From the NCBI RefSeq assembly GCF_002283555.1, contig NZ_MVOI01000003.1, positions 918,798 through 982,797 on the forward strand: 64,000 bases of DNA, written 5' to 3'. The stretch's first letter is position 1. Each line of letters begins with the position of its first letter. A model generated the notes under the pieces. That model was not told the origin of the DNA. It ran no database searches and worked only from the letters and a program-made list of their open reading frames with translations. The position numbers and the translations under genes are program-made. Shown one piece after another: positions 11,581 to 55,139 of the stretch. The stretch is from Rubrivirga sp. SAORIC476 (GTDB lineage: Bacteria > Bacteroidota > Rhodothermia > Rhodothermales > Rubricoccaceae).

Positions 11581-14500
11581 ATGACCCGACTCCTCCTGCT
11601 CGCCGTCCTCGCGCTGGCCGCCCTGCCCGCCTCGGCACAGCTCCAGCTCTTCCCCACGCTCGCCAGCGGGGCGGTGCTCCAGCGCGACCGGCCCATTCCG
11701 GTCTGGGGCCAGGCCGCGGCCGACGCCGAGGTGGCCGTCACCTTCCTCGGCACCACCACCACGACGACCGCCGACGCCGCGGGCCGCTGGCGGGTGGACC
11801 TGCCCGCTCGCTCCGCAGGCGGACCGTTCGTGATGACCGTCGTCTCGGGCACCCAGACGCGGACGCTGGGGAGCGTCTACGTCGGCGACGTGTTCCTGGC
11901 GTCGGGCCAGTCGAACATGGAGTGGCCGCTCAGCCAGACCGACGGCGGCGCGGCCGAGGCGGCGGCGGCCGACGACCCGATGCTGCGCCAGTTCAAGGTG
12001 CCGAAGGGGCTGTCGAACGAGCCGTCCGATACGCTGCCGAGCGGGGCCGCGTGGGCAGGCGCGACCTCGGCGTCGGCGACAGGCGCATTCTCGGCAGTGG
12101 CCTACTACGCCGGGCGCGACCTCCGCGCGGAACTGGGCATCCCGATCGGCATCCTGAACGTGTCGTACGGCGGGAGCCGGATCGAGACCTGGATGTCGGA
12201 GGCCATGCTCGGCTACGACGAGCAGGACGTGGTGCTCGCAGGCGGCGAACCCGAGCGCCAGCCGACCGTCGCCTGGAACAAGATGATGGTCCCGTTGCTC
12301 GACATCCCCGTCGCGGGCGTCCTGTGGTACCAGGGCGAGTCCAACGCCGACAACCTGGACGACGCGGCGGCCTACGGCGACCTCTTCCGGACGATGATCA
12401 CGGGCTGGCGCGACGCGCTCGGCCAGGGCGAGGTCCCGTTCATCTGGGTCCAGTTGCCCAACTTCGGGGACCCGCAGACGGTGAACGAGGGCGGCCCGCC
12501 GACGTTCGACGCGTGGCCCATCCTCCGGGCCGAGCAGAGCGAGGCGCTGGCCCTGCCCGCCACGGGCGAGGTGGTCGCCATCGACACCGGCCTGCCCGAC
12601 GCGACCGGGGCCGTGGACATCCACCCGAGAAACAAGAAGCCCGTCGGCGAGCGGCTGGCGCTCGTGGTCCGCGAGGTCGTCTACAGCGAGGACCTCGTCG
12701 CGGGCGGCCCGCGCTACGCGGCCAACGCGTTGCTGGAGGAGGGGACCGTCGCCGTCACGTTCACCGGGGCCACGGACGGGCTGACGACCGCCGACGGCAC
12801 CCTCGACGGCTTCACGCTCGCCGGGGCCGACGGCGTCTTCGTCTGGGCCGACGCCGTGATCGACGGCGACCGCGTGCTCGTGTCGAGCCCATCGGTGACC
12901 ACGCCCGCGACGGTCCGCTACGCATGGCAGTTCAACCCGGGCAACCCCGGCGTCCCGGGGACGGCCGACCTGACCAACACAGCCGGCTTCCCGGCAGCGC
13001 CCTTCGAGGCCGTCGTCAATCCCGGCTTCTCGATCGCCTCGTTCGGGTCGGCCCGCGCGACCATCGAGGCGGGGCAGAGCACGGTCCTCTCGTGGCAGGT
13101 GTTCGAGGCCGCCTCGGTCACGCTCGACGGCGCCCCGGTCGCGCTGGAAGGCTCCCAGTCCGTCTCCCCCACCGCCACCGCGACCTACACGCTCACGGCC
13201 ACCAACGCCGACGCCGAGACGCTCACGGAGACGGTCACAGTCGAGGTCCTGGACCCGACGCTCATCAACCGCGCTCGCGACCAGCCCGCGACGGCCTCCA
13301 CCGCGGAGGCGTGCTGTGGCGAGACCCGCGTGGCGGCGTTCGCCGTGGACGGCGACCTGACGACGCGCTGGGCGAGCGCGTGGAGCGACGGCCAGGACGG
13401 CCGCCCGGACGACCCGAACTACGACGGCACGCCGGACGACGAGTGGCTGGACGTGGACCTGGGCAACGTAATCGACCTGGACCGCGTGATCCTGACCTGG
13501 GAGGCCGCTCACGCGACGAAGTACGCCCTCCAGGCCTCGTTCGACGGGGTCAACTGGACGACGGTCTACACTGAGGACGAGGGCGATGGCGAGGTGGACG
13601 ACATCGTGCTCGACACGTCGCCCCCTGCGCGCTACCTGCGCATGCAGGGCATCGAGCGGCGCGACTTCGACGGCCAGCAGTTCGGCTACTCGCTGTTCGA
13701 CGTGGCCGTCTACGGCGAGGTCTCGGCCGTCGTGCCCCCCACCGCCTCGGTGACGCCTCGGACGGGGAACGTGGTGACGGCAGGCCAGGCGACCACGCTC
13801 GTCGCGGATGTGTCGGGGAGCGTCCAGACCGCGACGTTCTTCGCCGACGGCACGGAGATCGGGACGGACGACGCAGCGCCGTTCGAGCTGTCGTGGACCC
13901 CGAGCGCCGCGGGCCGTGTCGAAGTCGCCGTCGAGGTGGTCGACGCCGAGGGCCTGACGGTCCGCTCTCCGCTCGCGACGGTGTTCGTCGACGATGGCTC
14001 GCTGGTGCGGTTCGAGGCGGAGGATGCGACGCTGGAGGGCGGCAGCGACGAGTTCGGCCATACGCCGCTCACGTCGAGCGCGGCCGCCAGCGGGGGCGCC
14101 TACCTCGACCTCCGCCAGCAGTGGACGGTCACGCTCCCGCCGGTGACCGTCGAGGCCGCCGGGTCCTACCTCGTCAGCGTCGGGTACGTGATGACGTACG
14201 AGTCGCCCAAGACGCAGGTCCTGATCGTCAATGGGGTGCGGACGCCGATCGTGTTCACAGCTCCCGACAACGCGACGTGGATGCAGCACGGGCTGGAGGT
14301 GCCGCTCCAGGCGGGCGCCAACCAGATCGCGCTCGAAGGCTCGTGGAACTACATGAGCGTCGACTTCCTGGCCGTCGAGGACGCCCAGGCAGCGACGGCC
14401 GGCGAGGGCGTGATCGAGACGGGCTCCCTCAGGCTGGACGCGCCGTTCCCCAACCCGACGCGCGGCGGAGCGACGATCCGCTACTCGCTTCCCGCCCCGG

Positions 14501-51175: not shown

Positions 51176-53389
51176 ATGGCCGACCGCCGCGACGTCGACG
51201 CCCTCGCCCCTTCGATCCTCTCTTACCTGGAGAAGCATCCCGACCGCGCCTACCGCGCCAAGGAGATCTCCCGTGCGCTCGGGATCACGAACCAGGGTCG
51301 GTACCAGGCGCTTCTGGAGGCGTTCGACCGGCTCCGCGACACCAACCAGGTCGCGGTCCAGAAGGGCGGACGCGTGCAGCACCGCGGCAAGCAGAACGAG
51401 GCCGTCGGGCGCCTGTCCGTCACGACCCAGGGCTTCGGCTTCGTGACCATGGACGACGGCACCGAGTTCTTCGTCCGCCCCCGCCGCATGTCGACGGCGC
51501 TCCACGGCGACCGCGTCCGCGTGGCGCTGGCGGCCGAGAAGCGCAACAAGCCGTCCGACCAGAAGCGCGAGGCCGAGGTGATCGAGGTCATCGAGCGCGG
51601 CCGCAGCAAGACCGTCGGCACGTTTTCCACGACCGGCCGCTCCGGATGGGTGGTGCCGGACGACCAGCGCATCGCGCATGACGTGTTCGTGCTGCGCGAC
51701 AACTGGAACGGCGCCAAGACCGGCGACAAGGTGGTCGTCACCATCGACGCCTTCGACGATCCGAAGGCCGCCCCCGAGGGCACCATCGTGCAGGTCCTCG
51801 GGCAGGCCGATGCGCCCGGCGTGGACGTGCTGGCACTCGCGATGGCGCTCGGCGCCCCCTCCGACTTCCCCGACGAGGTGGAGGCCGAGGCGCAGGCCAT
51901 CGTGCCGGGCATCACCAAGAAGGAAGTCGCCCGGCGGCTCGACCTCCGCGACGAGCTGGTGTTCACCATCGACCCGGCCGACGCGAAGGACTTCGACGAC
52001 GCCATCCACACCAAAGACCTCGGCAGCGGCATGACCGAGGTGGGCGTCCACATCGCCGACGTGAGCCACTACGTCCACGAGGGCGGCATCATCGACCGCG
52101 AGGCGTACGACCGAGCCACGAGCACCTACCTCGTCGACCGCGTCATCCCGATGCTACCGGAGGCGCTCTCCAACGGCGTCTGCTCGCTGCGTCCGCACGA
52201 GGACAAGCTGGCCTACTCCTGCATCATGACCGTCGACGGCGGCGGCCACGTCCACTCGTGGGAGATCCGCGAGACGGTGATCCACTCGAAGCAGCGCTTC
52301 GCCTACGAGGAGGCGCAGGCGGTCATCGACGGCGCCGACCACCCGATGAAGGAGGAGGTCCTGCGCGCGGCCGAGCTGGCCCGCACACTCACCCAGAAGC
52401 GAATGTCGGAGGGCGCCATCGACTTCGACGTGCCCGAGGTCCGCATCCGACTCGACGAGAGCGGCCAGCCGGTGGACGTGTACGAGAAAGCGCGCCAGGA
52501 GGCCAACCGGCTCATCGAGGAGTTCATGCTGCTCGCCAACCGGTCGGTGGCCATGGAGGCCTCCAGCCGCGAGGTGCCGTTCGTGTACCGCATCCACGAC
52601 AAGCCGGACCGCGAGCGCATCAAGGCCCTCGCCGACTACGTGAAGACGTTCGGCCACAAGCTGCCGCACTCCGAGGGCGACGTGCAGCGGTCGAAGCTGA
52701 ACGACCTGCTGCGGTCGGTCAAGGGCTCGCCCGAGGCGCCGGTCATCGAGCAGGCCGCCATCCGGTCCATGTCGAAGGCGGTCTACTCGCCCGACAACAT
52801 CGGCCACTACGGCCTCGGCTTCGAGTACTACGGGCACTTCACGAGCCCCATCCGTCGCTACCCGGACCTCATCGCGCACCGCATCCTGAAGCGGATGCAG
52901 GACCAGCAGGACGGGAAGATCCCGACCGAGGAGACCCTGGCCGCGCAGTCGGAGCACTGCTCGGCGCGCGAGCGCGAGGCGACCGAGGCCGAGCGCGAGT
53001 CGATCAAGCTGAAGCAGGTCGAGTACGCCGCTGCCCACCTCGGCGACGAGTTCGACGGCATCGTGGTCGGCGTGACCAAGTTCGGCGTGTTCGTCCAGAT
53101 GACGAAGCTACTGGTCGAGGGTCTCTGCCACGTCCGCGAGATGGACGGCTACTGGGAGTACGACGAGCGCCGCTACACGCTGGTCTCGAAGAGCCACGGG
53201 CGGCGGATCCGCGTCGGCGACGCGTGCCGCGTCCGCATTGCAGCGGCCGAGCCCTCGACGCGCCGCGTGGACCTCGCCTTCGTCGAGATGCCCGGCCGGC
53301 CGGAGGAGGGAGCGCCGAAGCGCAGCAGCAAGGCCAGCCAGCGGACGGACAAGCGCAAGACGCGTGGTGCGCGGCGCAAGAAGCGGTAG
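51176..53389 (+). CDS. rnr: Ribonuclease R
   Basis: A 3'-5' exoribonuclease of the RNB family (737 residues) that degrades structured RNA. The N-terminus (LAPSILSYLEKHPDRAYRAKEISRAL) is a winged-helix domain, followed by cold-shock domains (about 85-220), the RNB domain with active-site aspartates in DPADAKDFDDAIHTKDL (near 265) and GVHIADVSHYV, an S1 domain (about 620-705) and a Lys/Arg-rich C-terminal tail, as usual for RNase R. The ATG before MADRRDVDAL was chosen because the upstream frame overlaps the divergent dsbD gene. A strong hairpin follows the stop. Confidence 0.95.
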   Translation: MADRRDVDALAPSILSYLEKHPDRAYRAKEISRALGITNQGRYQALLEAFDRLRDTNQVAVQKGGRVQHRGKQNEAVGRLSVTTQGFGFVTMDDGTEFFVRPRRMSTALHGDRVRVALAAEKRNKPSDQKREAEVIEVIERGRSKTVGTFSTTGRSGWVVPDDQRIAHDVFVLRDNWNGAKTGDKVVVTIDAFDDPKAAPEGTIVQVLGQADAPGVDVLALAMALGAPSDFPDEVEAEAQAIVPGITKKEVARRLDLRDELVFTIDPADAKDFDDAIHTKDLGSGMTEVGVHIADVSHYVHEGGIIDREAYDRATSTYLVDRVIPMLPEALSNGVCSLRPHEDKLAYSCIMTVDGGGHVHSWEIRETVIHSKQRFAYEEAQAVIDGADHPMKEEVLRAAELARTLTQKRMSEGAIDFDVPEVRIRLDESGQPVDVYEKARQEANRLIEEFMLLANRSVAMEASSREVPFVYRIHDKPDRERIKALADYVKTFGHKLPHSEGDVQRSKLNDLLRSVKGSPEAPVIEQAAIRSMSKAVYSPDNIGHYGLGFEYYGHFTSPIRRYPDLIAHRILKRMQDQQDGKIPTEETLAAQSEHCSAREREATEAERESIKLKQVEYAAAHLGDEFDGIVVGVTKFGVFVQMTKLLVEGLCHVREMDGYWEYDERRYTLVSKSHGRRIRVGDACRVRIAAAEPSTRRVDLAFVEMPGRPEEGAPKRSSKASQRTDKRKTRGARRKKR

Positions 53390-53397
53390 TCCGGCCC

Positions 53398-53423
53398 GGC
53401 CCGCCTCGGTGCCGAGGCGGGCC
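53398..53423 (+). terminator. rnr terminator hairpin
   Basis: GGCCCGCCTCGG and CCGAGGCCGGC-type arms form a perfect 12-base stem (53398-53409 with 53412-53423) around TG, 8 bases past the rnr stop. The following bases are GTCTCAT, without a real T-run. It contains the CCGCCTCGG core shared with hairpins at 11544 and 16577. Confidence 0.6.
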
Positions 53424-53538
53424 GTCTCATGCGACGTGCAGGCCGGCGCTCGCGCGTCGAGCGGGGCCAACTGGTGCGCACAAGGTGCTGTGTTGTATTC
53501 TCTTCACCCACCTTTTCCACGCATCCCCTCCTGCTGTT

Positions 53539-54180
53539 ATGCGCCTGTTCGTCGCGGCCCTCGTTCTTCTGACCCTGCCTGGATGTGTCTCCTTCTCTGA
53601 GACCCAGCGTGCCCAGGTCGAGGATGCGCGCTCGCTCGTGTCGCGTGTTGTCGAGGATCCTCGGTTCGAAGCGGTGCTCCTCGACATGGGAGCGAACGAC
53701 GAGATCGAGTGGGAGGGTCGGCTCGCGTCGGGCCTGACGGAGCGCCCCGCCGACCCAACCCGTTGGCTCGTCGACCGCTACAAAGAGGCAGGCGCACCAC
53801 AGACCGAAAACATCCGGCCCTACGTCCCCTATCTGGGCTTCTGGCCGCTGAGCAAGACTCGGGCAGCCGCGGGGTACGGCTCGGATGAGATCAAGTTGAA
53901 CGTCGTGTACCTCGAACGCCCGACGTCGCGCATCGTCCGTGACCCCATCTCGATCGCCAACACGCTCGTCCACGAGAGCGCCCACACGTTCGGGCAGGTC
54001 CACGGGGACTCTCAGGAGGCGAGCGTCAACGCGTGCGACGCGGCGTACGTGGCCGGCACCCTCGCCGAGGCTCTCCTCCGCTCCGACGCCGCCGGAGGGG
54101 CCATCGGGGAGAAGGAGATCTCGTCGCCGGTCTGCTCGGAACTCTCGGAGCGGCTCCAGGCCCGCGGCGTGCTCCGGTAG
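53539..54180 (+). CDS. Small lipoprotein with a metzincin-type zinc motif
   Basis: A 213-residue envelope protein with a lipobox LPGC (residues about 13-16). Residues 145-155 read HESAHTFGQVH, an exact HExxHxxGxxH zinc-binding motif as in metzincin metallopeptidases, placed in a helix-like context (IANTLVHESAHTFGQVHGD). The usual downstream Met-turn is not visible; no Met follows the motif. Two Cys (near 166 and 199) could form a disulfide. Metallopeptidase activity is therefore inferred from the motif only. It is a single gene between the rnr terminator and the DUF4349 gene. Confidence 0.72.
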   Translation: MRLFVAALVLLTLPGCVSFSETQRAQVEDARSLVSRVVEDPRFEAVLLDMGANDEIEWEGRLASGLTERPADPTRWLVDRYKEAGAPQTENIRPYVPYLGFWPLSKTRAAAGYGSDEIKLNVVYLERPTSRIVRDPISIANTLVHESAHTFGQVHGDSQEASVNACDAAYVAGTLAEALLRSDAAGGAIGEKEISSPVCSELSERLQARGVLR

Positions 54181-54263
54181 AGCGCGCCTTCCTGTGAAGC
54201 AGGCAAGAAGCAGAGGCTGGGATCGTTGACGGGGCTCACCCCCGGGGCCCACCCACCCCTGCC

Positions 54264-55139
54264 ATGCGAACCCTCACTCTGCTTTCGCTGCTCGCCCTCG
54301 CGGCCTGCGCGGACGACCCTGCGTCCTTCGCCGACGCCACCTACGACCCCGTCTCTATGGCGGAGGCCCCGGAGTCCACTGTGGACCTCGCCGGGGCCGA
54401 CCTTGACGAGGCCTCTGCCGAGGCAGACGAAACCGCTGCTCGCGCACCGTCCGCCCCGCCGCTCTCCGACGCCGCCTTCGCCTCGCGGCTGCTCCGACGC
54501 TCGGCAGACCTCCGCGTCTCCACCGAGACGCACGACGAGACGCTCCGCGCCGCCCGCGCCGTCGCCGCCCGCTACGGTGGCATGGTCAGTGGCGAGGACG
54601 GCTCGGCCCACGACGGCGGCAGCGCGATGACCACCCTCACGCTCCGCGTCCCGTCGGACCGCTTCGACGCCGCGCTCGACGCGCTGGCTGCCCTCGGCAC
54701 CGTCGAGTCCCGCGCCGTGACCGTGGACGACGTGACCGCGCAGGTCGTGGACGTGGAGGCCCGCCTCCGGGCCAAGCGCGCCGCCGAGGCGCGCTACATC
54801 GGCTTCGTCGCCCAGGCCAGTTCGGTGTCCGAGATGCTGGAGGTGCAGGCGCGACTGGACGCCGTCCGCGCCGAGATCGAGTCGATGGAGTCGCAGGCGC
54901 GCGCGTTGCGCGGCGGCGTGACGCTGGCCACGATCCGCGCCACCATCGTCGGTCCGGCGACCGTGGCCCCACTGCCCCCGGCGCCGGGCCTGTTCGCCCG
55001 CGCGGCGGACGCCATCGCGGTGGGCTGGCACGGCGTGCTGGCGGTCGTGTTCGGCCTGCTGCCGCTGTGGCCCCTCGCGGTCCTCGGCACGGTCGGCTAC
55101 GCCGTGTGGCGGCGGCTGTCGCCGCGCGTCGCGGTCTAG
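54264..55139 (+). CDS. DUF4349 lipoprotein
   Basis: A 291-residue envelope protein that fits DUF4349: lipobox LAAC (12-15), an Ala/Glu/Ser-rich linker, a ferredoxin-like core of about 75-165 (LLRRSADLRVSTETHDETL, MTTLTLRVPSDRFDAALDAL), a coiled-coil segment of about 165-215 (VDVEARLRAKRAAEARY, LEVQARLDAVRAEIESMESQ), and a C-terminal membrane helix near 260-280 (VFGLLPLWPLAVLGTVGYAV). The biological role of the family is unknown. The TAG stop shares the CTAG at 55136-55139 with the stop of the convergent methyltransferase gene. Confidence 0.85.
   Translation: MRTLTLLSLLALAACADDPASFADATYDPVSMAEAPESTVDLAGADLDEASAEADETAARAPSAPPLSDAAFASRLLRRSADLRVSTETHDETLRAARAVAARYGGMVSGEDGSAHDGGSAMTTLTLRVPSDRFDAALDALAALGTVESRAVTVDDVTAQVVDVEARLRAKRAAEARYIGFVAQASSVSEMLEVQARLDAVRAEIESMESQARALRGGVTLATIRATIVGPATVAPLPPAPGLFARAADAIAVGWHGVLAVVFGLLPLWPLAVLGTVGYAVWRRLSPRVAV

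Follow-up and report, generated by a model that had tools for sequence, protein, structure and literature searches.

Zincins are sorted into tribes that are defined by the third zinc ligand and by the Met-turn. The aspzincins of family M35 combine HExxH with a third ligand that is an Asp, carried within the motif GTxDxxYG. According to PMC3890501, the M94 mini-zincin lacks a Met-turn, and its Tyr113 is proposed to compensate for the absence. In Listeria, the phage-derived metzincin Mtz cleaves a lipoprotein, the TIMP-like protein Tim (PMC8235301).

The window, by which we mean the whole 64-kb stretch of DNA that was analysed, encodes a protein (P0001; Table 1) that carries the metzincin zinc motif HExxHxxGxx(H/D). 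The original prediction had reported an exact HExxHxxGxxH motif with no Met after it, and both statements proved correct: the sequence HESAHTFGQVH occupies residues 145–155, Met occurs only at residues 1 and 50, and 58 residues remain after the motif. When back-translated, the motif has a single occurrence on the two strands of the window, whereas 0.02 occurrences are expected from shuffled sequence (two of 100 shuffles contained one). Because it lacks a Met-turn, P0001 is by definition not a metzincin. We consider it somewhat probable that P0001 acts in the cell envelope as a lipid-anchored zinc endopeptidase with a single domain, with His145, His149, His155 and Glu146 forming its active site, and that it represents a sparse and unnamed zincin family. 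In broader terms, P0001 is likely to be a genuine zinc protease that has yet to be classified.

Table 1. Coordinates of the P0001 gene, its proposed functional residues and its neighbours in the window.
Feature	Position	Strand	Basis or remark
P0001, predicted lipoprotein with zincin motif	53539..54180	+	213 aa plus stop; ORF and in-frame homologue
Signal peptide with lipobox LPGC (L13-P14-G15-C16) and predicted lipid-attached Cys16	53539..53586	+	Sequence; homologue has ITGC
HESAHTFGQVH, proposed zinc ligands His145, His149 and His155 and catalytic Glu146	53971..54003	+	Motif and conservation
Cys166, common to P0001 and Pseudoalteromonas homologue	54034..54036	+	Possible disulphide with Cys199
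DAAY, Asp167 and Tyr170	54037..54048	+	Tyr170 invariant in family; Asp167 an alternative third ligand
Cys199, common to P0001 and Pseudoalteromonas homologue	54133..54135	+	
Context: upstream gene, presumably RNase R-like	51179..53389	+	Start approximate
Context: downstream DUF4349 lipoprotein-like gene	54264..55139	+	Pfam DUF4349, E 1.6e-53

Comparison of P0001 with the curated Pfam, NCBIfam and PHROGs models yielded no family at cut-off or significance, and its best weak match was to Pfam Reprolysin_5 (E 0.03). This match and the exact spacing of the motif would fit a genuine metzincin in which the Met-turn has degenerated or lies at a place where it was not recognised. However, no Met follows the motif, and we regard this explanation as distinctly unlikely. 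Elsewhere in the same genome there are two Pfam Reprolysin_5 matches above cut-off (G000:C13:1903-2454 and G000:C6:5704-6237), and these are apparently ordinary metzincin-like proteins.

P0001 is predicted to be a lipoprotein of bacterial type. The lipobox claimed for it was recovered at residues 13–16, albeit in an atypical form, since Pro at position -2 is unusual relative to common lipobox patterns. Its homologue from Pseudoalteromonas (P0002, described below) has a regular lipobox, and for both proteins the call was judged from sequence. Lipobox-like motifs are present in six of the 13 family members that we aligned, and the N terminus is missing from the data for three of the 13.

The P0001 gene is sparsely distributed. 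When used alone as the query, P0001 identified a single positive among 60 relative genomes, namely its own. A profile made from P0001 and P0002 (A1) likewise recovered only the genome of origin among 114 genomes of the order, and matched two of 296 genomes when applied to the phylum. The second of these was an antisense artefact and was rejected, as the locus (L005) lies opposite a gene that we take to be trpF-like. Among 72,556 plasmid records, exactly one matched P0001, and this is a megaplasmid from Pseudoalteromonas piscicida (NZ_CP074588.1). The encoded protein, P0002, was found by tblastn with an E value of 1e-17 at about 30.6–32% identity over 88% of P0001, and we consider the homology secure. 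Residues retained in P0002 include His145, Glu146, His149, Gly152, His155, Gln159, Asn164, Cys166, Asp167, Tyr170, Gly173 and Cys199. Thus, the description of P0001 as an orphan holds inside its own order but not globally. The original prediction had also looked to orthologues for loss of the Glu or of any of the three His residues, and P0002, the one clear homologue, has lost none of them.

Searches with P0001 found no relative in genome_contigs, viral_contigs or PDB sequences and no match in GenBank phages, and no relative was found in viral contigs with A1, the motif pattern or A2. The motif pattern gave five loci in genome_contigs, none of them a relative; L006 and L009 encode longer metalloproteases, and the remaining three loci do not encode proteins of this kind. 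We also rejected L002 (E 0.28), H4 and H6–H9 (E 3–10), and L025, which is a lipoprotein with the Met-turn SIMNYP.

P0001 was not found in three genomes of the same genus (completeness 93%, 96% and 81%). Because the active site is intact at approximately 32% identity to P0002 and yet the gene was not detected in these congeners, we infer that it is an accessory gene gained by transfer, and horizontal acquisition is probable. The GC and GC3 values are 0.676 and 0.85 for the P0001 gene, 0.691 and 0.958 for the upstream gene, and 0.751 and 0.925 for the downstream gene. In one congener (G003), the interval from the RNase R-like gene to DUF4349 contains a 745-codon ORF in convergent orientation that matches Peptidase_C1 (24.2 bits, cut-off 20.7). 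In another (G002), both the lipoprotein and DUF4349 are missing downstream of the RNase R-like gene, and the ORFs that come next instead resemble those found past DUF4349 in the window, which are presumably methyltransferase-like and ferrochelatase-like. These differing contents (L020 and L021 compared) indicate that positions 53390–54263 constitute a variable slot, into which the P0001 gene would have been inserted.

A wider set of candidate relatives was reached from viral contigs. Scanning these contigs with the pattern HExxHxxGxxH...Y..G returned 70 loci, and most of the real proteins among them resemble matrixins and carry a Met downstream of the motif. By eye, only one of the 70 is family-like: L095, whose protein P0003 reads HEAMHNFGFDH...SVPYQIG and has no Met-turn. 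Whole-protein similarity linked P0003 to a protein of phage MW202898.1, P0004 (E 2e-20). The family member at positions 13134–13775 of that phage (L099) carries the label "bone morphogenetic protein 1", which is a transferred annotation without support from the sequence. Alignment of P0003 and P0004 led to two phage lipoproteins with the zincin motif, L102 and L103. Their genes (L102:2848-3411 and L103:2231-2782) reside between genes that we take to be terminase-like and portal-like, which is an odd site for a lipoprotein.

A four-row profile (A6) then matched one of 385 genomes, yielding P0006 from another member of the window's phylum (E 2.6e-17). Among 367 genomes from a second phylum (the one to which G382 belongs), a seven-row profile (A8) matched eight; on reading, L110, L111, L112, L113, L115 and L116 were kept, and L114 and L117 were dropped as possessing a Met-turn or being leishmanolysin-like. 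A 13-row profile (A10) had matches in eight of the 395 genomes searched from the window's phylum, comprising the genome of origin, those of P0006 and L120, and five that were not accepted. L120 (L120:1453-1956, minus strand) is probably related but has a longer loop, with HESVH followed by GHGDN and TAPYWIG, and it matches residues 121–188 of P0001 at 30% identity. The A10 matches L121–L125 were rejected or not taken as relatives (L121 has no HExxH in the stretch examined), the weak matches L105–L107 (E 0.2–0.7) were not accepted, and H11/H12 and H15–H19 (E 0.1–0.7) were rejected, H11 lacking the motif. The family reached in this way is sparse and unnamed, with members scattered over phages, the window's phylum and one further phylum. 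Among the titles and abstract openings retrieved from the literature, none describes it.

The kinship of P0001 and P0002 with the phage family was assessed against controls drawn from the length-filtered remainder of the 70 scan loci (52 for hhalign, with L095 included, and 58 for profile and BLASTP tests). By hhalign, A1 matched the phage set at 85.9%, and single motif-bearing controls reached 83.6%. Because matrixin-like controls that bear the motif score as high, we rejected this measure as proof of kinship. An eight-member profile from which P0001 and P0002 were excluded, although three of its members had originally been retrieved by a profile that included both, gave 17.5 bits for P0001 and 22.7 bits for P0002, compared with at most 11.8 for the 58 controls and at most 3.2 and 5.2 for shuffles of the two proteins. 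With the motif masked, the corresponding scores were 2.0 and 4.5 bits (controls at most 2.2, shuffles at most 3.3 and 6.0); the register of these matches was unchanged, but they were not significant.

Other profiles gave mixed results. A five-member profile scored P0002 at 18.3 bits and P0001 at 7.1 bits, with a control maximum of 8.9, and separated neither protein when masked; with the motif masked, the same profile gave 48.6, 16.9 and 24.9 bits for L110, L111 and L112, the three proteins by which the eight-member profile extends it. An 11-member profile, which is partly circular because L110–L116 came from a search whose profile included P0001 and P0002, yielded 39.7 bits for P0002 (19.1 masked) and 23.6 bits for P0001 (4.6 masked), with controls at most 17.0 (2.6 masked) and shuffles at most 4.8 (8.6 masked). 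In the reverse test, the profile of P0001 and P0002 did not separate the family (best 11.9) from the controls (best 9.2). By BLASTP, P0002 matched family members at 35.8 and 35.0 bits, above its best control at 27.7, whereas the best match of P0001 was a control at 27.3 bits and its best family member scored 24.3. Taken together, these sequence comparisons make the kinship likely, but they do not prove it.

Four columns are invariant in the 13-row alignment (A10), corresponding to His145, Glu146, His149 and Tyr170. The position six residues after the second His (+6) is His in ten of the 13 members, Asp in two (L113 and L116) and neither in L115. Gly152 is not universal, as it is missing at that place in L102, L103, L112 and L115. 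Note that the motif in P0003 is no evidence of conservation, because this protein was fished with the motif. Five proteins (P0002, P0004, L102, L103 and P0006) were instead identified through profiles or through similarity of the whole protein, and all five keep HExxH and the third His. Hence, retention of the Glu and three His residues is borne out for these five, but not for the more distant members with Asp or neither residue at +6. In L110, a family lipoprotein (L110:1486-2211, minus strand) that reads HEGEGHSQGFRH, one extra residue turns HExxH into HExxxH and the rest of the family pattern is intact. The alignment contains no conserved Met column after the motif, and eight of the 13 members have no Met beyond +6, which further argues against a true metzincin.

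The invariant Glu also bears on the idea that P0001 is a dead, metal-storage or structural lipoprotein, in which the zinc site is kept for folding or binding only. We know of no family member that has been characterised. Another minimal zincin, M95, showed no detectable activity, according to PMC3890501. However, all 13 aligned members retain the catalytic Glu, a residue that would be dispensable in a purely structural site. For this reason, we judge a noncatalytic role to be very unlikely.

Variation at the third ligand raises the further alternative that P0001 is aspzincin-like, employing Asp167 in the DxxY of the following helix, rather than His155, and working like the M35 deuterolysins. 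Asp167 is kept in P0002 and is aligned in L111 and L115, and the latter lacks a +6 His or Asp but has DxxYxxG. In this secreted, family-like protein (L115:1480-1977, minus strand), the sequence GDRIYEMG resembles the aspzincin ligand arrangement. However, most other relatives carry Ser or Thr at the Asp167 position and keep the +6 His. Moreover, P0001 reads NACDAAYVAG around Asp167, such that DxxY is present but the GT and YG of the aspzincin signature are absent, and no member matched the Pfam M35 models. (PF06262 also matched none of the 13 members.) We therefore consider an aspzincin-like mechanism unlikely, even though, as described next, M35 enzymes provide the best fold matches for a modelled relative.

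The single-sequence AlphaFold2 model of P0001 is not interpretable (pLDDT 41.7). Its phage relative P0003, modelled with L102, L103 and P0001 as the alignment, reached a pLDDT of 72.0 and a pTM of 0.71. This model comprises four strands, the HExxH helix (residues 149–162) and then a helix (residues 178–194) that starts near the conserved Tyr. Foldseek returned GfMEP (M35) as the best PDB match (E 4.3e-4). VIA-align 2 placed AsaP1 (2x3a), presumably also of family M35, at the top (Z 9.1, 3.6 Å over 136), with GfMEP (1g12; Z 9.0, 3.8 Å over 134) and deuterolysin (1eb6; Z 8.8, 3.8 Å over 137) close to it. After M35 came YbeY (7.4), Wss1 (7.2), M1 aminopeptidases (approximately 6) and metzincins (5.3–5.8). 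The M35 match is only modestly above background, because best Z scores of 7–8 are common without kinship, as the tool itself warns. The comparison with metzincins that had been proposed for P0001 thus gave matches to them on the P0003 model, but the M35 structures matched better. In profile searches of PDB sequences with the 13-row alignment, astacins, snake venom metalloproteinases and Wss1 matched with E values from 0.003 upward, chiefly across the motif, which speaks for the metzincin alternative, and the M94 structure 3e11 appeared at E 1.3 only.

Returning to the reading of P0001 as a three-His zinc endopeptidase, Zn2+ would be held by His145, His149 and His155, and Glu146 would activate water for peptide-bond hydrolysis, acting as both general base and general acid. 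Tyr170, located where the following helix begins, may sit beneath or beside the metal; there it could seal the zinc site from below or lend stability to the transition state, perhaps in place of a Met-turn and in the manner of Tyr113 in M94. A disulphide may also link Cys166 and Cys199. A protein or peptide of the envelope, near the membrane, is the most likely substrate. The Mtz precedent makes an envelope substrate plausible but carries no information on that of P0001.

What appears new is an unnamed, sparse and often lipid-anchored family that joins the metzincin ligand set and an invariant Tyr to a scaffold predicted to be M35-like. We also entertain, as a doubtful proposal, that the family bridges two zincin tribes, combining an aspzincin-like scaffold without a Met-turn with the three-His motif of metzincins. 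The third ligand would then have shifted among the +6 His, a +6 Asp and the helix-borne Asp of DxxY while the invariant Tyr held the site, and P0001, with both His155 and Asp167, would stand at the switch point. Metzincin ligands, an absent Met-turn, an M35-like predicted fold and a varying ligand position would together make the order in which these features originated testable. The family also marks an unannotated class of putative envelope proteases encoded on phages and chromosomes.

With metzincins (subclan MA(M)), P0001 shares the exact HExxHxxGxxH spacing, but it differs from them in the absence of a Met-turn from its 58 remaining residues and in the weaker fold match of its relative. 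With the M35 aspzincins AsaP1, GfMEP and deuterolysin, the family shares HExxH and the lack of a Met-turn, and P0001 has DxxY; however, the third ligand of M35 is Asp, whereas here a +6 His predominates and Pfam M35 is not matched. Mtz is similar in being a phage-linked zinc protease that acts at the envelope, but PMC8235301 describes a secreted enzyme with the Met-turn AIMLD, for which the lipoprotein (Tim) is the target and not the protease. Finally, the M94 mini-zincin (DUF1025, PF06262, Acel_2062, 3e11) resembles P0001 in being small, in lacking a Met-turn and in having a Tyr suggested to substitute for Met. The original prediction of a minimal envelope metallopeptidase with a new arrangement stands insofar as P0001 is predicted to be a small lipoprotein of the envelope whose metallopeptidase site is conserved, but a zincin without a Met-turn was already known in M94. 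As described in PMC3890501, M94 has HExxHxxGxxD, approximately 110 residues and no signal peptide, whereas P0001 has a His as third ligand, 213 residues and the features of a lipoprotein.
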